Below are positions 15,991-63,220 of a stretch of 64,000 bases of DNA, piece by piece. The position numbers were made by a program, and so were the translations under genes. The stretch is from assembly GCA_017619935.1 (NCBI GenBank), contig JAFZRJ010000014.1:124001-188000 (forward strand). Reading direction: 5' to 3'. This DNA comes from Muribaculaceae bacterium (GTDB lineage: Bacteria > Bacteroidota > Bacteroidia > Bacteroidales > Muribaculaceae). Numbering within the stretch: position 1 is the stretch's first letter; each line of letters starts with the position of its first letter. The notes under the pieces were generated by a model, which worked only from the letters and a program-made list of their open reading frames with translations, ran no database searches and was not told where the DNA came from.

Positions 15991-17372
15991 ATTTCTAAGG
16001 TCTCTTTAATAAGAGACACCCCAATCTTCTCAACAATGCCAGTTACTAGAGCATTGCCCATCAGAAAGGCCCTTCTTGTGTCACTTACACCAAATGTGTG
16101 ATTATCGGGGAACATGTTTAATCGTTCCAGTTCAATCGGAATCAATCGGCGATAGCGACCCGAAGGTGTGATAACTATATGCTTGAATCGAGAGGGGCTG
16201 TTACCTCCTTCTCCAGTTATTATTGTTCTAGATGGTTTATTAAGGTAATCAGGGAAAGCCATACTGCCTTCGCTGTAATCATATTCATAACCAGTTGCTT
16301 TATTAACTCGCTTTATTTTTTTACTACTTTTGAGATATTCCCATTTTTCTATTTCTTTATCATCAATAAAAAACTCTTTAGGAATATTCTTTTCACTTTC
16401 TAAGATTTGGCCTAAAGTCAGTTTGGGACCATTGTATTTTGCACTAGTATTGATGGAATAAACTTGTCTATTAATTATGATTCCAGTATTCTCAAACGGG
16501 CTATTTTTTACCCCTTTATTGAAATTGGCTGAAACCGTCGGTAAATCTCCATCTATGGTGAACGTGTGCCATTTATCTGAATAGTTGATGTAAATAGGCA
16601 AGGCATCAGCAATAGTTCCATTAAATAACAACCAGTCCTTTGGGTCACTAATTCTTTGGCCGATTGTGGAACTTGCTTTATAACCCAAAATATAGGTTCT
16701 TTTCCGTCTTTGTGGCATGCCGTATTCGGCAGCATTAACAACTCTCCACTCCACGATGTAACCTAAATCGGACAAAGAGGCCAAAATAATGGCAAAATCA
16801 CGACCACGTTGTGTCGCAGGTGATTTCAGCAAACGATCAACATTTTCAAAAAACAAATAATCAGGTTGATGCTTGCAATCATGCAAAATGCGATAAATCT
16901 GCCACCACAAAACACCCTTTTTCCCCTCAATACCACCTGACCGATTTAGTGTAGTTGCAACTGAGTAGTCTTGACAAGGGAATCCACCTACAAGCAAATC
17001 ACAATCGGGAATTTCCGACACATCAACAGTGGCAATATCCACATTGGAATGTCCCTCTGAGCCAAAACGCTTACAATAAACAATGCTTGCATCTTGTCGT
17101 TTTGTTGAAGGCTCCCACTGGTTGTTCCAAACAGTACAATACCGTTTGGATGCTCGCTCTAAACCGATACGAAAGCCACCTACTCCTGCAAATAATTCAA
17201 CCACTCTGATATCGCCTCGTTTTGCTGTAACTGCTTCAGGTGAAAAAAGTTCCAATTGCCTATAATGCGGAACTGTTTTTCTGCAATAATCTGCAATAGC
17301 CTCACAAAGGACATAGCCCTCTGAAGAAGCGTCAGTATATGGTTTTATCTGCTTGTTTCCCTTGTTTTTCAT
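15987..17372 (-). CDS. C5 cytosine-specific DNA methyltransferase, predicted GATC partner
   Basis: This 461-residue enzyme methylates cytosine C5 in DNA and should protect the host from the restriction enzyme encoded just upstream. All key motifs are visible: I as FAGVGGF (61-67), IV as FPCQDYS with catalytic C133, VI as ENV (176-178), VIII as QRRKRTYILGY, IX near RRLIPIELERLNMFP, and X as GNALVTGIVEKIG. The region between VIII and IX is the target-recognition part. The gene is clearly more A+T-rich than its neighbours, a sign of transfer. GATC specificity is inferred from the Sau3AI-like partner, not from this gene. It starts three bases after the partner stop. Confidence 0.95.
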   Translation of the reverse strand: MKNKGNKQIKPYTDASSEGYVLCEAIADYCRKTVPHYRQLELFSPEAVTAKRGDIRVVELFAGVGGFRIGLERASKRYCTVWNNQWEPSTKRQDASIVYCKRFGSEGHSNVDIATVDVSEIPDCDLLVGGFPCQDYSVATTLNRSGGIEGKKGVLWWQIYRILHDCKHQPDYLFFENVDRLLKSPATQRGRDFAIILASLSDLGYIVEWRVVNAAEYGMPQRRKRTYILGYKASSTIGQRISDPKDWLLFNGTIADALPIYINYSDKWHTFTIDGDLPTVSANFNKGVKNSPFENTGIIINRQVYSINTSAKYNGPKLTLGQILESEKNIPKEFFIDDKEIEKWEYLKSSKKIKRVNKATGYEYDYSEGSMAFPDYLNKPSRTIITGEGGNSPSRFKHIVITPSGRYRRLIPIELERLNMFPDNHTFGVSDTRRAFLMGNALVTGIVEKIGVSLIKETLEI

Positions 17373-48581: not shown

Positions 48582-49034
48582 TTATTCGCGAAGGCGGGAG
48601 TCGATGATGATGGTGACCGGGCCGTCGTTAATGAGTTCGACTTGCATATTGGCACCGAACACTCCTTTCTTCACTTCGGCGCCTGTCAACTCCTGTAATT
48701 GAGCGCAATAGCCGTCATAGAGCGGAACGGCTAAATCGTGGCCGGCGGCATGGATGTAACTGGGACGGTTACCCTTCTTGGTGCTGGCATTCAGCGTGAA
48801 CTGGCTCACAGCCAACACTTCGCCACCAACATCCATCACACTGCGGTTCATCACACCAGCCTCGTCGTCAAAGATGCGCAGTGTCGATGTCTTGGCAGCC
48901 AGCCACTTCACGTCATCGATGGTGTCGCCTTCACGAACTCCGACCAGAACCATCAATCCCTGCCCTATTTCACTGTAAATTTTGCCGCCGATGCTCACCG
49001 ACGCCCGTTTCACACGCTGTATGACCAGTCTCAT
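48582..49034 (-). CDS. dtd: D-aminoacyl-tRNA deacylase
   Basis: This 150-residue enzyme removes D-amino acids (and glycine) from wrongly charged tRNA. The family motifs are clear: MRLVIQRV at the start, VSQFTLNAST (SQFTL) near residue 77 and the cross-subunit motif, which reads NDGPVTIIIDS (NxGPVT type) near residue 136. The length fits bacterial Dtd. It overlaps the uvrC stop by four bases, so translation is probably coupled. Confidence 0.95.
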   Translation of the reverse strand: MRLVIQRVKRASVSIGGKIYSEIGQGLMVLVGVREGDTIDDVKWLAAKTSTLRIFDDEAGVMNRSVMDVGGEVLAVSQFTLNASTKKGNRPSYIHAAGHDLAVPLYDGYCAQLQELTGAEVKKGVFGANMQVELINDGPVTIIIDSRLRE

Positions 49035-50848
49035 GCTTGTTGATTTAATGCGTTAATGATTAGTTTTGCTTTCACAGGCCCGACGACGGCTGCAAGTTCA
49101 TCGACCGAGGCTTGACGGATGCGTTTTACGCTCTTGAACTGCTTGAGCAACAACACCTTGGTAGCTGGACCGACGCCCTTGATACCGTCGAGCACCGAAG
49201 CCACCTGCTTCTTCCCACGCTGCTTGCGGTGATGCGTGATGGCAAAACGGTGCGCCTCGTCGCGCAAGCGCTGAATCACGCGAAGCGTTTCGCTGTTTTT
49301 GTCGATATACAGCGGCACGCTGTCGTGAGGGAAATAAATCTCGTTCAGTTGCTTGGCGATGCCAATGGCGGCCACCTGGTTCTCCACGCCCAGGCCACGA
49401 AGCGCCTCTACCGCCACACTCAGTTGGCCCTTACCGCCATCCACTACCAGCAACTGCGGCAACTCCTCCCCTTCCTGCAACAGCCGGGAGTAACGCCGCG
49501 TGATGACCTCGCTCATCGACGCATAATCGTCGGCACCTTCAACGGTCTTGATGTTGAAATGGCGGTAGTCCTTTTTGCTAGGCTTGGCGTTGCGAAACAC
49601 CACGCAACTGGCCACTGGCGAAGAACCGGAAATATTGGAATTGTCGAAGCATTCGATGTGGCGCGGGAGCGTGGTGAGGTGCAGATCGCGTTGCATGGTG
49701 GTCAAGGTGCGGGTGACCCGCTGCTCAGGGTTGAGCTTCTCCATGCGGTTCAACTTGTCGGTGATGTACTGCCGCGCATTCTTGACGGCGATGTCGAGCA
49801 ATTTACGCTTGTCGCCCCGCATGGGGACGGCAAACTCCAGACCATCAAACTCCACGTCGGGCAGGACGTTGACCACCACTTCGCGAACACGGTCGGCCTT
49901 GTAAGTCTCGGCAAACCGGTGACGGATTTCCTGAAAGCCCAGCGACATTAGTTCTTCGTCGGTCTCCCCCACCCCTCGCATCTTATATTCCAGCGTAAAG
50001 CTCTGAACCACCGAGCCATTACGCACATGCATATAGTGGATGCAAGCCGACGAATCCTCGTCACGCACCAACCCGAACACGTCTATATTGTGTATCGTAG
50101 GGCTCACTATCGCCGAGCGAACTCGCAGTTTCTCGACAGCCAAATATTTGCGTTTCAATTCGTTAGCCTCTTCGAAACGCAGCTCGGCAGCCATGTGTTC
50201 CATCTCGGATTTCAGGTAGTCGCTCACCGACTTGGTGTCGCCATTCAGTATCGACTTCACCTCATCGATATAACGGCCGTAAACCTCAGGCTCCACCAAC
50301 CCACGGCAACAACCCTCGCAACGCTTGATGTGAAACTGCAGACAAAGGCGGTGCTTCTGTTGCTCGATTGTTTCACGTGAAACATGGTGCGAGCAGTTGC
50401 GTATCGGGTAAATCCTCGCAATGGTATCGAGGATGACGTGGGCGGTCTCTGCCTTAGGATAAGGTCCATAGTATTTCGCCCCCTTGCGTAAGGCGTCGCG
50501 CGTCATGAACACACGGGGATACAACTCCTTGGTGACGCATATCCAGGGGTAAGACTTGTCGTCCTTCAGGAGCACGTTGTAGCGAGGCTGGAACTCCTTG
50601 ATCAGGCTATTTTCGAGGTCAAGCGCCTCCTCCTCGTTGTTGACTACCGTGTATTGAAGGTCATGGATATTTTTGACCAGGATATTGGTCCGCACCACCT
50701 GGTGCACTTTGTTGAAATAGGATGAGACACGACGCTTCAAGTTCTTCGCCTTGCCCACATAGATGATGACGCCATCACGACTGTAATAGCGATAGACACC
50801 TGGCGACTCGGGCAGCAAACTTATTTTTAGTTTCAGCTCGTCGGTCAT
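49031..50848 (-). CDS. uvrC: excinuclease ABC subunit C
   Basis: This 605-residue subunit makes both incisions in nucleotide-excision repair. The GIY-YIG domain is at the N-terminus (PGVYRYYSRDGVIIYVGKAK), followed by a UVR segment near residue 205 (LRFEEANELKRK), the RNase H-like C-terminal nuclease (ECFDNSNISGSSPVASCVVF), and helix-hairpin-helix motifs at the end (LDGIKGVGPATKVLLLKQF). Length is normal. A perfect parS site lies inside the gene at 50369-50384. Confidence 0.97.
   Translation of the reverse strand: MTDELKLKISLLPESPGVYRYYSRDGVIIYVGKAKNLKRRVSSYFNKVHQVVRTNILVKNIHDLQYTVVNNEEEALDLENSLIKEFQPRYNVLLKDDKSYPWICVTKELYPRVFMTRDALRKGAKYYGPYPKAETAHVILDTIARIYPIRNCSHHVSRETIEQQKHRLCLQFHIKRCEGCCRGLVEPEVYGRYIDEVKSILNGDTKSVSDYLKSEMEHMAAELRFEEANELKRKYLAVEKLRVRSAIVSPTIHNIDVFGLVRDEDSSACIHYMHVRNGSVVQSFTLEYKMRGVGETDEELMSLGFQEIRHRFAETYKADRVREVVVNVLPDVEFDGLEFAVPMRGDKRKLLDIAVKNARQYITDKLNRMEKLNPEQRVTRTLTTMQRDLHLTTLPRHIECFDNSNISGSSPVASCVVFRNAKPSKKDYRHFNIKTVEGADDYASMSEVITRRYSRLLQEGEELPQLLVVDGGKGQLSVAVEALRGLGVENQVAAIGIAKQLNEIYFPHDSVPLYIDKNSETLRVIQRLRDEAHRFAITHHRKQRGKKQVASVLDGIKGVGPATKVLLLKQFKSVKRIRQASVDELAAVVGPVKAKLIINALNQQA
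50369..50384. other. Perfect ParB-binding parS site
   Basis: TGTTTCACGTGAAACA is identical to the 16-base parS consensus of chromosomal ParB. It lies within uvrC and coincides with the codons of HVSRET. A 16-base palindrome is unlikely by chance in 64 kb. Confidence 0.85.
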
Positions 50849-50882
50849 GACCTCACAATTTCAAGGCAAGATGCCGCTAGCA

Positions 50883-51425
50883 TCACACCCCATCGAAATC
50901 AAACAGCGTGGTGACCTCGATATCGGCAGGCAACACCGCACGACCATTCAGTCCTGTGAGGCCGCATAGGAAGTTGATGTAAATCATCTTCGGATTCATC
51001 GACTTCACCAGCTCGTAGGCAGCAAGCATGGTGCCACCGGTCGCCAGCAAGTCGTCGTGGATGACCACCACATCATCGGCGGTGATGGCATCGCTGTGAA
51101 TTTCGATGGTGTCGGTGCCATATTCCTTTTCATAAGACTTCTTGATGGTCTCGGCCGGCAGTTTGCCAGGCTTGCGAATGGGCACGAAACCAGCGCCCAA
51201 ACATGCCGCCAATAGCGAGCCACCGATAAAACCGCGCGACTCTATGCCCACCACCTTTGTCACACCACGGTCCTTGTACAGTTCCTCCATGGCGTCGGCC
51301 ATAACGGTCAAGGCCTCTGGGTCCTTAAACGCCGTGGTCAAGTCCTTAAACTGAATACCCTTGACGGGAAAATCGGGAATGTTGCGCACCAGCGCCTTTA
51401 CTGCTTCAAGTTTTTTCTTTTCCAT
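50883..51425 (-). CDS. apt: adenine phosphoribosyltransferase
   Basis: This 180-residue enzyme salvages adenine to AMP using PRPP. The PRPP motif VVVIHDDLLATGGTMLAA lies near residue 122, and the family start (IPDFPVKGIQFKDLT) and ESRGFIGG segment are present. Length is typical. It lies 34 bases upstream of uvrC and 43 bases after mnmG on the same strand, with a parS-like site in the mnmG-apt gap. Confidence 0.95.
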   Translation of the reverse strand: MEKKKLEAVKALVRNIPDFPVKGIQFKDLTTAFKDPEALTVMADAMEELYKDRGVTKVVGIESRGFIGGSLLAACLGAGFVPIRKPGKLPAETIKKSYEKEYGTDTIEIHSDAITADDVVVIHDDLLATGGTMLAAYELVKSMNPKMIYINFLCGLTGLNGRAVLPADIEVTTLFDFDGV

Positions 51426-51444
51426 TTGTATCGTATGATGTTAA

Positions 51445-51460
51445 TGTTTCACGTGGAACA
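51445..51460. other. parS-like site with one mismatch
   Basis: TGTTTCACGTGGAACA matches the parS 16-mer at 15 positions. It lies in the short gap between mnmG and apt, 1,061 bases past the perfect site. Confidence 0.75.
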
Positions 51461-51468
51461 ATGGCCCG

Positions 51469-53346
51469 TCATCTTCCCAACAGCAACAACAAAATATTGA
51501 TGTCGCTGGGCGAGATACCGGGTATGCGGGACGCCTGCCCCACCGTTTCAGGGTCTATTCTCTCCAATTTCTGGCGGGCTTCTATGCTGATTTGCGTGAG
51601 ATTGGCATAGTCCAATTTGCCGCGCAGCACCACCGAATCAAGCCGCGAAATGCGGTCGGCAACCAACTTTTCACGCTCAATGTAGCCGCTGTATTTGATT
51701 TTGATTTCAGCCGCCTCGATGATTTCATCACGGCGCTCCTCCTCTATCCGGTCTAAAACGGAAGACAATTCAGGCAATAATTGCGCCAAAACCAGCAAAC
51801 CCAGTTGTGGACGGAGGATGAGATCGTATAGTTTCACGCCCTGACGGAGCGGTGAAATTTCGTGTTCTTCCAAATAGGCGTTAACCGACTCGGGCTTCAC
51901 CGAGAATGATTTTGCAAAATCAATGATTTCATCAATTTGCTGCGATTTGCGCTGCATCAATTCATAACGACGGTCATCAACAAGCCCTAATTTTCGGCCT
52001 AGAGGCGTGAGACGCATATCGGCATCGTCCTGCCGCAGCAGAATGCGATGTTCGGCCCGTGAAGTGAACATACGGTAAGGCTCATCAACGCCTTTTGTTA
52101 CCAAATCGTCAATCAACACGCCGATGTAAGCCTCATCGCGCGCCAGAGTGACTGGCGGCAGGTCGTGCACTTGGCGATGTGCATTGATGCCAGCCAACAA
52201 ACCTTGTCCGGCAGCCTCCTCATAACCTGTGGTGCCATTGACCTGGCCAGCGAAAAATAGCCGCTTGACCAACTTGGTTTCCAACGTGTGTTCCAGTTGA
52301 GTGGGATCGAAAAAGTCGTATTCAATGGCGTAGCCAGGTCGATAAATCTGCACATGACGCAATGCCGGAATCTTCTGCAACGCGCCCAACTGCGCCTCCC
52401 ACGGGAGCGAAGATGAGAAGCCATTCAGGTACATCTCATGCGTTTCCTCCCCTTCGGGTTCTATAAATAATTGGTGCGAATCGCGGTCGGCAAACGTAAC
52501 GATTTTGGTCTCAATACTAGGACAATAACGCGGGCCTACACTCTGAATCTGGCCATTATATAGCGGCGAGTCGTTGAGCGACGCGCGCAACACGTCGTGA
52601 GCCTCGGCATTGGTATAAACAATCCAGCAATTTCGCTGACGCAACTCGGTGTGCACATCGGGAAGGAACGAAAAATGGTGGAAATCATGCTCACCCTCCT
52701 GTACCGTGGCTTGGGAATAGTCGATGCTACGCCCGTCGATACGGACCGGCGTACCCGTTTTCATGCGTCCGGAGGTAAAACCCAGGTTGATGAGTTGCTC
52801 GGTCAACCCGTGCGAAGCCGGTTCGGCCACCCTGCCGCCTTGCACTTGCGCACGGCCGACGTGCATAAGTCCGTTGAGGAAGGTGCCGGCTGTCAGTATC
52901 ACCGACTTGGCCCCAAATTCCACACCCAGAGCCGTTTTTACACCCACAACTACCCCATTGTCAAGGACCAACTCATTGACCGAATCCTGCCACAAGTATA
53001 AGTTGGGCGTGTTTTCCAGAATGCGTCGCCACTCCACGCTATACCGCATGCGATCGGCCTGTGCTCGTGGGCTCCACATGGCGGGACCCTTGCTGCGGTT
53101 GAGCATACGGAACTGGATGGTGGAACGGTCGGTGACAATTCCCATCATTCCGCCAAGCGCATCTATTTCCCTAACAATCTGTCCCTTAGCAATTCCTCCG
53201 ACAGCCGGGTTACAACTCATTTGCGCCACCTTGTTCATATCGATGGTGACCAATAGGGTAGTGGAGCCCAGTCGTGCTGCTGCGCAAGCGGCCTCACAAC
53301 CGGCATGGCCGGCGCCTATCACTATGACATCGTAATCCCGAATCAT
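51469..53346 (-). CDS. mnmG: tRNA uridine 5-carboxymethylaminomethyl synthesis enzyme MnmG (GidA)
   Basis: This 625-residue FAD protein, with MnmE, installs cmnm5 on the wobble uridine of several tRNAs. The FAD motif is VIVIGAGHAGCEAA near residue 7; PAVGGIAKGQIVREIDALGG follows, and the second signature reads GQVNGTTGYEEAAGQG. I chose the ATG at 53344-53346, whose ATGA overlaps the ybeY stop; the frame runs eight residues further but without need. The gene is often near the origin in bacteria, which fits the parS sites beside it. Confidence 0.96.
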   Translation of the reverse strand: MIRDYDVIVIGAGHAGCEAACAAARLGSTTLLVTIDMNKVAQMSCNPAVGGIAKGQIVREIDALGGMMGIVTDRSTIQFRMLNRSKGPAMWSPRAQADRMRYSVEWRRILENTPNLYLWQDSVNELVLDNGVVVGVKTALGVEFGAKSVILTAGTFLNGLMHVGRAQVQGGRVAEPASHGLTEQLINLGFTSGRMKTGTPVRIDGRSIDYSQATVQEGEHDFHHFSFLPDVHTELRQRNCWIVYTNAEAHDVLRASLNDSPLYNGQIQSVGPRYCPSIETKIVTFADRDSHQLFIEPEGEETHEMYLNGFSSSLPWEAQLGALQKIPALRHVQIYRPGYAIEYDFFDPTQLEHTLETKLVKRLFFAGQVNGTTGYEEAAGQGLLAGINAHRQVHDLPPVTLARDEAYIGVLIDDLVTKGVDEPYRMFTSRAEHRILLRQDDADMRLTPLGRKLGLVDDRRYELMQRKSQQIDEIIDFAKSFSVKPESVNAYLEEHEISPLRQGVKLYDLILRPQLGLLVLAQLLPELSSVLDRIEEERRDEIIEAAEIKIKYSGYIEREKLVADRISRLDSVVLRGKLDYANLTQISIEARQKLERIDPETVGQASRIPGISPSDINILLLLLGR

Positions 53347-53780
53347 GGCAAACAAACATTTGGTGGACACATCGCGAGAGCCGCATCCTCATGGCTTTCC
53401 ATGATTTCACGCTCCCCAGGTCCCTTGTCATTTATTCCGCACAGGTGCAACACGCCGTGAATCACCACTCGCAACAGTTCCTCGGCATAGTCGTGGCCGA
53501 AAAGTTGGGCGTTGCTCTTGACGGTGTCCAGCGAAATCACCATGTCGCCACTCACGCGGTGGCTATTGCTGTAGTCGAAGGTGATGATGTCGGTATAATA
53601 GTCGTGTTGCAAAAATTGTTCATTCACCTTTAATATATATTCATCGTTACAGAACACATAGGTGAGTGTGCCCACGACCCTGTCATGGGCATGAACAACA
53701 TCTTCAATCCAACGGGCAAGTTTCTGCTCGTCGAAATGTGGCAGTTCAACATTTTCAGCCTGTAAACCGATGTGCGGCAT
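53343..53780 (-). CDS. ybeY: endoribonuclease YbeY
   Basis: This 145-residue metal-dependent RNase works in 16S rRNA 3'-end maturation and ribosome quality control. The family's H-G-x-L-H-L-x-G motif is HGVLHLCGINDKGPGE near residue 109. The usual third histidine is replaced here (NDK instead of YDH), as I recall for Bacteroidetes members. The start is 20 bases after a TAATTTTG box. It is the first gene of the ybeY-mnmG pair. Confidence 0.93.
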   Translation of the reverse strand: MPHIGLQAENVELPHFDEQKLARWIEDVVHAHDRVVGTLTYVFCNDEYILKVNEQFLQHDYYTDIITFDYSNSHRVSGDMVISLDTVKSNAQLFGHDYAEELLRVVIHGVLHLCGINDKGPGEREIMESHEDAALAMCPPNVCLP

Positions 53781-59947: not shown

Positions 59948-60370
59948 ATGCAAGGATTGAGATTATATAAATCCGAAAAACTGTGTAGCCGCACCGCCGT
60001 GAAACTCCTGTTTGACACTGGAGAAAACCTTGTGGCCTATCCGTTGCGTGTGGTTTACAAGCTTCATGAGGCCGACACAGCGCAGGCTCGGTTCCTCATC
60101 ACCATTCCCAAGAAACGCATCCACCACGCTGTGGACCGCGTGCTGCTGCGTCGCCGCATACGAGAGTCCTACCGCCTGCACCGTCGCTCCTTGCTCCACC
60201 CGGCACTACAGTGCTCAGGTGTCGCCGCCGACTTGGCGTTTATCTATATCTCCAACGAAAAGATTGATTTCCATCACATTGAAGAAAAGATGAAGGTACT
60301 GCTCACACGCCTTGCCGACGCCGCCACACAAACGGGTGGGGAAGAGTTTCCTACATCGCCAAAGCCATGA
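59948..60370 (+). CDS. rnpA: ribonuclease P protein component
   Basis: This 140-residue basic protein helps the RNase P RNA mature tRNA 5' ends. The family motif is [16 protein letters not shown] near residue 68, preceded by [17 protein letters not shown]; the N-terminus ([10 protein letters not shown]) is also typical. I chose the ATG at 59948 because it begins with this known start; the frame is open upstream through the promoter. It overlaps yidD by four bases. Confidence 0.93.
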
Positions 60371-60585
60371 AAATTCTGTCAAAAATACTCATATTGCCCA
60401 TCCGCTTTTACCAGCGATTCATCTCGCCGCTGTTCCCCCCTGTGTGTCGTTTCACCCCCTCATGCAGCCAGTATGCTGTGGAGGCCATTCTCAAGCATGG
60501 GCCATTCCGAGGCACATGGCTGGCCATCAAGCGCATCCTGCGTTGCAACCCGTGGGGAGGCAGTGGATACGACCCCGTGCCATGA
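60367..60585 (+). CDS. yidD: membrane protein insertion efficiency factor YidD
   Basis: This 72-residue protein assists YidC-dependent membrane insertion. Its signature [21 protein letters not shown], given here in parts as [14 protein letters not shown], carries the three conserved cysteines, and [17 protein letters not shown] ends it as in most homologues. It overlaps rnpA and tatD, each by four bases, which implies coupled translation. Confidence 0.96.
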
Positions 60586-61794: not shown

Positions 61795-62085
61795 TTACTG
61801 AAAAACAATTTCATGAATCACTTCACGTCCCATCCTCTCATTGATGCGCTGGATGATAGACGTGCGGTTGAGCATCATCTCATTACGCAACACCGCCGAC
61901 GACAACTTCACATACATCACGCCATTACGCACATCACGGCTCACGGTGTAGCGGTTGATGCCAGACCCCACAATTTCGGGCCACAATGCGCTGGCACCGT
62001 ACTCATCAAGTTGGTTGTCGAGTTGTTCTTCCTTCATGAAACCATCTATGATGTCGCCTATGCTTTTGGGGTGCGTGCGTTTCAC
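61795..62085 (-). CDS. DUF721 (DciA-like) protein
   Basis: This 96-residue protein resembles DUF721, the family of DciA, which loads the replicative helicase in many bacteria lacking DnaC. The sequence has the family pattern: SIGDIIDGFMKEEQLDNQL, then WPEIVGSGINRYT, then LYV/MYVKLSSAVLRNEM and the terminal helix. It overlaps the recF stop by four bases (ATGA), and this recF-DUF721 pairing is common in Bacteroidetes. Confidence 0.85.
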   Translation of the reverse strand: MKRTHPKSIGDIIDGFMKEEQLDNQLDEYGASALWPEIVGSGINRYTVSRDVRNGVMYVKLSSAVLRNEMMLNRTSIIQRINERMGREVIHEIVFQ

Positions 62086-63191
62086 TGGTTACCTCCTTTC
62101 GTAAGAGGGGTGCACACGCCGTCCACCACCTCATACATGCGGTGGTCGCTGGCGAGCCGCGACACGATACGGTCGATGTGGGCGCGGTTGGTGTCGGTAA
62201 TAAAAATCTGTCCGAACTGCTCGCTCGACACCACATCCACGATGCGCTCCACCCGCGAAGCGTCGAGTTTGTCGAAGATGTCATCAAGCAGCAGGATGGG
62301 TGTGGTGGGGGTGATATCCTTCAAGAAACTGAACTGCGCCAGCCGCAAGGCGATGGTATAGGTCTTGCACTGGCCCTGCGACCCCGTGCGACGCATGCTG
62401 TGGCCATTCAGCAGCAACTCGATGTCGTCGCGATGAACGCCACGGGTGGTGTAGCCCATCACCATGTCGCGCTCACGATTCTGCGCCAGCACTTGCTGCA
62501 TGTCCATGTCATTCAGCGAACTGACATATTGCAACTGCACTTGCTCCTGCTCTCCAGCCACCGCTTGATAATAGTGCAAGAAACGGGGTGTGAACGCCTC
62601 AATCCAGCGTGAACGCGCCTCGTGAATCACTCGGGCGGCACCGCACATCACCTGTTCGACCGTCTCATAGAGAATGGGGTCGCGCATTTCGCGGCGAATC
62701 ATGCTGTTACGTTGCTCCACAGCCTTACGGTAACGGATGAGCGCGTCGAGGTACTCGGCGTCGGTCTGAGAGATAATCTGGTCCATGAGGCGACGGCGTT
62801 CCTCGCCTGTGCCACGAATCAAGTCCCAGTCCATGGGCGAAATCATCACCAGCGGCAGTAACCCGATGTGCTGGCTCAAACGTTGGTATTCCTTGCCTCC
62901 CCGGCGAGCCACCTTGCGTTTTCCTCGCTGCAGCGAGATAGTGATGTCCTCCTCAGTGTCGCGACGTGTATATTGCCCCTGCAGCATCATGTAGGGTGCT
63001 TCGTGCATGATGGCCGAGTTGTCGGGCTGATTACTGCTGCTCTTGCAGAAACTCAGGTAATAGATGGCGTCGAGTATGTTGGTCTTTCCCATTCCATTAT
63101 TGCCGATGAGGCAGTTCACCCCCGGGGAAAACTGCAAGGCAGCCTCGGCGATGTTCTTGTAATTGAGAATAGAAAGAGTGTTCAGTCGCAT
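62082..63191 (-). CDS. recF: DNA replication and repair protein RecF
   Basis: This 369-residue SMC-like ATPase helps load RecA at gaps. Walker A is GNNGMGKTNILDAIYYLS near residue 33, the signature region is GSQGQCKTYTIALRLAQF, and Walker B is PILLLDDIFDKLD near residue 295. I chose the ATG at 63189-63191 (MRLNTLSILNYKN); an ATG nine bases upstream is also possible. A TAATTTTG box lies 29 bases before the chosen start. Confidence 0.95.
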   Translation of the reverse strand: MRLNTLSILNYKNIAEAALQFSPGVNCLIGNNGMGKTNILDAIYYLSFCKSSSNQPDNSAIMHEAPYMMLQGQYTRRDTEEDITISLQRGKRKVARRGGKEYQRLSQHIGLLPLVMISPMDWDLIRGTGEERRRLMDQIISQTDAEYLDALIRYRKAVEQRNSMIRREMRDPILYETVEQVMCGAARVIHEARSRWIEAFTPRFLHYYQAVAGEQEQVQLQYVSSLNDMDMQQVLAQNRERDMVMGYTTRGVHRDDIELLLNGHSMRRTGSQGQCKTYTIALRLAQFSFLKDITPTTPILLLDDIFDKLDASRVERIVDVVSSEQFGQIFITDTNRAHIDRIVSRLASDHRMYEVVDGVCTPLTKGGNQ

Positions 63192-63220
63192 GTCCAACAA
63201 TGGGTTTTATTTTTGCCATA

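Follow-up and report, generated by a model that had tools for sequence, protein, structure and literature searches.

The window analysed here, a 64-kb stretch from the genome of a Muribaculaceae bacterium, carries a run of minus-strand genes, dtd, uvrC, apt, mnmG (gidA) and ybeY, in which two parS palindromes are embedded (Table 1). A pattern scan of the window locates the exact 16-mer, TGTTTCACGTGAAACA, within uvrC, and a second copy that is one base off the consensus, TGTTTCACGTGGAACA, in the gap between mnmG and apt, the starts of the two sites being 1076 bp apart. This gap measures only 43 bp, leaving 8 bp between site 2 and the mnmG stop and 19 bp on its other side before the apt start. 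An earlier note, made from the sequence alone, had described both an exact and a single-mismatch parS and had assigned one to uvrC and the other to the apt-mnmG gap; the scan bears out the two sites, and the open reading frame coordinates together with the family matches bear out their placement. The GTG start given for mnmG is a mechanical call and may be too early.

Table 1 Features of the parS segment and of the candidate origin element (window positions, except where a contig is named)
Feature	Position	Strand	Remarks
dtd, downstream neighbour of uvrC	48582..49034	-	TIGR00256, 173.9 bits vs cut-off 101.5
uvrC, carries site 1	49031..50848	-	TIGR00194, 539.7 bits vs cut-off 285.45
parS site 1, exact palindrome	50369..50384	.	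inside uvrC, codons 155-160
apt, site 2 just upstream of start	50883..51425	-	TIGR01090, 194 bits vs cut-off 185.85
parS site 2, one base changed	51445..51460	.	mnmG-apt gap
mnmG (gidA), parS kept beside it	51469..53370	-	TIGR00136, 809.5 bits vs cut-off 524.85
ybeY, neighbour	53343..53780	-	TIGR00043, 97.5 bits vs cut-off 45
recF, context gene	62082..63200	-	TIGR00611, 315 bits vs cut-off 172
Candidate oriC element, model match	C18:211107-211282		this genome

An exact and a one-mismatch copy at this spacing are far beyond chance. Specifically, about 0.0007 places per window would be expected at up to one mismatch (arithmetic with equal base frequencies). At up to three mismatches the expectation rises to 0.48 per window, and the window holds one place besides the pair, at 17232 with three mismatches; three matches were reached in 1 of 100 shuffles. 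The earlier note had also proposed mapping the 16-mer over the genome, and at up to two mismatches the pair proves to be the sole occurrence in the whole assembly, which comprises 1,861,378 bases on 38 contigs, is 66% complete and could lack further sites. The reversed pattern occurs at three places at the same tolerance, and two-mismatch copies alone therefore mean little. Six other members of the genus (95-98% complete) each have two places at up to one mismatch, 1.1-1.3 kb apart on the same contig, and the reversed control gives one place in one of these six.

Beyond the genus, parS is kept beside mnmG. Searches anchored on parS find a place at up to one mismatch in 92 of 119 family genomes (this genome included), mostly one or two per genome, and none in the other 27, with the reversed control giving one place in 3 of the 119. 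Thirty of these parS loci were fetched, and 28 are at the locus described here, 26 adjoining mnmG and 2 showing only uvrC and dtd, while L007 and L014 lie elsewhere. The same association emerges when the search is anchored on mnmG, in a set for which parS was not selected: among the best 80 of 577 confirmed loci (named genomes, mostly Bacteroidales by title), 73 at up to two mismatches and 58 at up to one have a site between positions -40 and +600 relative to the mnmG 3' end, its median start is 13 bases past the matched mnmG end, and the reversed control gives 0 of 80, over 1.5 Mb. Seven of the 80 have no site at the mnmG 3' end (L037, L062, L066, L074, L075, L083 and L096); L066, L074 and L075 have no parS place anywhere in the locus, and L037 has one in uvrC.

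Across the phylum, the parS-anchored search finds a place at up to one mismatch in 69 of 80 genomes (this genome included; reversed control 3/80) and none in 11. Mnm​G lies within 1.5 kb in 25 of the 29 loci that this search yielded; in one further locus, L162, ybeY alone is seen, close to the end of a contig, and three (L154, L156 and L158) show neither mnmG nor ybeY. An mnmG-anchored draw of 31 phylum genomes gave a locus in 30, and this genome was dropped (n = 29). In this draw, 27 of the 29 at up to two mismatches and 25 at up to one have parS no more than 1.5 kb from mnmG, with a reversed control of 0/29 and with L232 and L239 having no site within that distance; the parS-anchored and mnmG-anchored draws overlap in genomes and are not independent. 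The side of mnmG varies, as several other families of the phylum have parS 5' of the gene, in the interval that separates it from ybeY. In one family, f16, mnmG has a parS site at either end, the two spaced by about 1.9 kb, in 5/5 genomes (L240, L242, L243, L244 and L245).

The earlier note had further placed this segment close to the origin of replication and had suggested GC skew as a guide. Skew is negative across the entire window, which fits an origin to its right. The cumulative GC skew of this genome reaches its minimum at position 211,001 of contig C18, beyond the right end of the window and about 36 kb from the parS sites, which start at 174,369 and 175,445 of the same contig, which supports the proposed location. 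C18 has mixed skew between about 196 and 228 kb, with a second minimum near 225,000 almost equal to the one at 211 kb. Single broad minus-to-plus turns are found in the complete chromosome of the relative G092 (20 windows of 20 kb) and in Bacteroides fragilis Q1F2 (20 windows and a further locus), with a few windows off the pattern: slightly positive at 660 kb and about zero from 2.8 Mb in G092, and +0.03 at 2,750 kb in Bacteroides fragilis. In fine tiles, the skew minimum and parS lie at 1,376,501 and 1,420,462 in G092, at 2,946,001 and 2,931,714 in the relative G057, and at 4,492,501 and 4,597,162 (second place 4,587,252) in Bacteroides fragilis. In these three genomes and the present one, the turn is thus 0.01 to 0.1 Mb from parS. 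From these patterns we infer that the segment is origin-proximal and that the skew turn marks a putative oriC.

Marker genes proved to be poorer guides. Of the genes invoked in the earlier note, recF is present in the window above its cut-off, the RnpA match falls under its family cut-offs, and the open reading frame at 60367-60585 is YidD-like by eye. The gene-based argument is weaker than it looks, because oriC commonly lies far from dnaA in Bacteroidetes, as stated in an excerpt of PMC4755523. The position of dnaA, which had been suggested as a second guide, was rejected as an origin marker for being far from the skew turn in both relatives measured: dnaA is near 782 kb in G092 and near 684 kb in G057, which is 594 kb and about 1.05 Mb, respectively, from the candidate oriC element described below (contigs taken as circular). 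In this genome, dnaA is on contig C4. A TrmH-like gene was likewise rejected as a marker, lying 73 kb (G057) and 128 kb (G092) off the skew turn, and gave way to the non-coding element described next.

At the skew turn lies a conserved, AT-rich, non-coding element (C18:211053-211467; L135:3053-3467), about 23 kb past the right end of the window, which is proposed here as a putative oriC. A first profile, built from five relatives (L274, L280, L282, L286 and L294), matches this genome as well as Bacteroides fragilis (4492882-4493351), G092 (1376766-1377157) and G057 (2944501-2944902), in each case at most 1.5 kb from the skew minimum; the five sequences were picked for resembling the gap of this genome, so that the match in this genome is not independent and the other three are less affected. 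Among 13 aligned stretches taken from in front of TrmH-like genes, only some resemble this genome in the part of the alignment listed. A second model of 178 positions, built from 21 sequences, matches 111 of 118 family genomes and 87 of the 90 good ones, once in 101 and twice in 10; with the training genomes excluded (16 of 118), the element is found in 95 of the 102 others.

The distance of the element from the local skew minimum, taken over a stretch of 20 to 120 kb around the element or parS, is 0.4 kb in G013, 0.6 kb in G010, 3.8 kb in G117, 5.8 kb in G054 and 25 kb in G096. Altogether, the element is at most about 6 kb from the minimum of the examined stretch in 8 of 9 genomes, G096 being the ninth and the whole chromosome having been sampled for two. 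The element is upstream of nadA in G057 and Bacteroides fragilis (nadA above its cut-off) and upstream of a TrmH-like gene in this genome and Bacteroides fragilis (RlmB and TrmH models, below cut-off); in G092 it follows a glucose-6-phosphate isomerase gene, about 3 kb from nadA. The G092 element is apparently split, into C1:1376955-1377128 and 1380041-1380156, about 3 kb apart. By the DnaA box consensus, the gap of this genome, which is 75% AT, contains one perfect box, and that of Bacteroides fragilis one near-box.

How these sites should be read depends in part on the copy within uvrC. Conceivably, only the mnmG-apt site is a true parS and the uvrC copy is a chance outcome of codons spelling VSRET; a single place at up to two mismatches is indeed the commonest state (51 of the best 80 of 577 named loci, with none in 3, two in 25 and three in 1), and 94 of 101 UvrC copies differ from parS by 6 to 14 bases in the aligned stretch. 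Yet all seven copies that have VSRET at codons 155-160 carry the exact 16-mer, and partial matches to VSRET, with three or four residues, are absent from the 101. This set comprises the copies covering these codons, with duplicates recognized over the first 600 bases and dropped. Of the seven, five come from this genome and genus members and were fetched via parS, and L035 and L037 were fetched via mnmG. The seven genes keep the codon at just 32 of 288 unchanged residues (M and W excluded), and their unchanged 16-base windows, 7 of 1800, all overlap the parS site, a count that is partly circular since these genes were picked for carrying it, whereas the 101-copy test chose by protein. One-mismatch second sites occur at the equivalent of uvrC codon 184 in the genus members G060 and G040 (L215 and L216) and in L034, and exact ones at the equivalent of codon 561 in L022 and L024. 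Such second sites appear as if gained anew, which sits poorly with chance codons and fits repeated, independent gain of a second parS near the first. The uvrC site thus looks selected as DNA, and the chance-codon explanation is very unlikely. Even less credible is a role of the palindromes as operators for some other DNA-binding protein, such as one regulating apt or mnmG. Site 2 is suitably placed for this, just ahead of the apt start, but the 16-mer occurs on either side of mnmG or within uvrC depending on lineage and so follows no single promoter, and it is retained in the Parabacteroides loci L044, L055 and L056, where no apt was found.

A separate issue is whether genuine parS sites here need imply a nearby origin, as parS might be tied to mnmG while the segment itself is not origin-proximal. 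G010 has its mnmG-apt parS at C11:424662, on a 1.78 Mb contig, and the element at C25:10438. This parS is at least 424 kb from either contig end and hence from the candidate origin element, a split that may reflect rearrangement, misassembly or parS following mnmG. In Bacteroides fragilis, moreover, about 104 kb separate the mnmG site from the skew minimum. Against this stand the distances from the nearest listed parS place to the best element match, which range from 2.7 to 64 kb with a median of 28.6 kb in 22 genomes that have both on one contig (70 genomes have listed parS places and 65 of them the element, 43 of these being unmeasurable), with short contigs biasing the values downward. The distance is 35.7 kb in this genome and 43.5 kb of 3.3 Mb in the complete chromosome of G092; in G023 the nearest parS place is not beside mnmG, and its other place is 63 kb from the element. 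A segment remote from the origin is accordingly improbable, though somewhat less so than chance codons in uvrC. A wider proposal, for which we see a small but appreciable chance, is that the centromere of the phylum follows mnmG rather than the origin: parS would stay on either side of mnmG, would arise again in uvrC wherever selection favours a second copy, and would stay after mnmG had left the origin (as in G010), in lineages without a canonical SMC.

The proteins that would act on these sites are encoded on another contig. This genome has one parB_part match, a 293-aa ParB on contig C36 with three Pfam ParB domains above cut-off. A gene for a 265-aa ParA-like ATPase adjoins it; the ATPase is under the cut-off of every family shown, ParA_partition being the best at 116.5 bits versus 180. 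Aligned with solved ParB and Noc chains and four relatives, this ParB has R173, F179, K184 and G201 in Caulobacter numbering. The numbering is our own placement, based on the alignment, the Caulobacter protein and the text of PMC7383237. According to an excerpt of that paper, two positions are absolutely conserved in ParB as R and G, both of which are present here, and position 184 is K or R in about 28% of ParB and K in Noc. The best solved-structure match of this ParB is a Noc. A Noc/NBS system was nevertheless rejected, as the two specificity positions, Q and R in Noc, are R and G in this protein.

Canonical SMC was also dropped as a partner of ParB: no match above the TIGR02168 cut-off was found in 5/5 genomes, the present incomplete one among them, and the weak matches cover the model partially, mostly its middle. 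An excerpt of PMC10197239 reports homologs of known condensins to be absent from two Bacteroidetes. With no canonical SMC above cut-off, condensin loading of the usual kind is unlikely, and the parS sites probably serve ParA-driven separation instead.

Taken together, we are highly confident that the pair is the chromosomal parS centromere of this genome, that is, a set of predicted ParB loading sites in an origin-proximal segment. The sites, their rarity and conservation, the parB gene beside a ParA-like one, the presence in ParB of residues typical of parS binders and the skew turn are computed results; ParB binding, clamp loading and segregation are inferred from known ParABS systems. By that analogy, a dimer of the ParB encoded beside the ParA-like ATPase would engage each palindrome, take up CTP and form a closed clamp that slides across apt, mnmG, uvrC and the DNA around them, after which ParA would separate the freshly replicated origin regions. 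A pair of loading sites spaced by about 1.1 kb would make loading more robust, and the replication origin would most likely lie about 36 kb rightward, outside the window. The side of mnmG would offer a fixed, testable centromere address for a phylum little studied in chromosome segregation. The candidate origin element would help to place origins in drafts where dnaA misleads, and the system would allow ParABS function to be tested without canonical SMC.

Literature searches on parS with mnmG/gidA, on parS in Bacteroidetes and on a conserved Bacteroidales origin gave, among the matches listed and judged by title and opening of the abstract, no report of the parS-mnmG link or of such an origin; a survey of parS in bacteria by Livny et al. 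in 2007, cited in PMC7022226, may contain part of these findings. Firmicutes and other bacteria have an origin-region gene cluster with mnmG, parA and parB. The present arrangement resembles this cluster in that mnmG and parS are close together near the predicted origin, and differs from it in having parAB on another contig and, in the relatives measured, dnaA far from the skew turn, with parS remaining beside mnmG. As in the chromosomal ParABS systems of Bacillus subtilis and Caulobacter (consensus from an excerpt of PMC10197239), the same 16-bp palindrome is present in few copies near the predicted origin, and a ParB with the R and G of parS binders adjoins a ParA-like gene. Unlike in these systems, parS is on C18 and parAB on C36, no canonical SMC exceeds its cut-off in the five genomes searched, and one site, within the coding sequence of uvrC, appears to be selected at the DNA level. 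The Noc/NBS system, as described in the excerpt of PMC7383237, involves a related protein, which is also the best structure match, with Q and R in place of the R and G found here. Further parallels are Muribaculum intestinale and Bacteroides caecimuris, whose origins were placed by parS and GC skew, with the comment that the origin need not coincide with dnaA, and in which likewise no known condensin was found; mnmG is not mentioned beside parS in that excerpt of PMC10197239. The pair is an ordinary chromosomal parS of a known kind, and the extension it offers is the link between parS and mnmG across the phylum, together with the conserved element at the skew turn.
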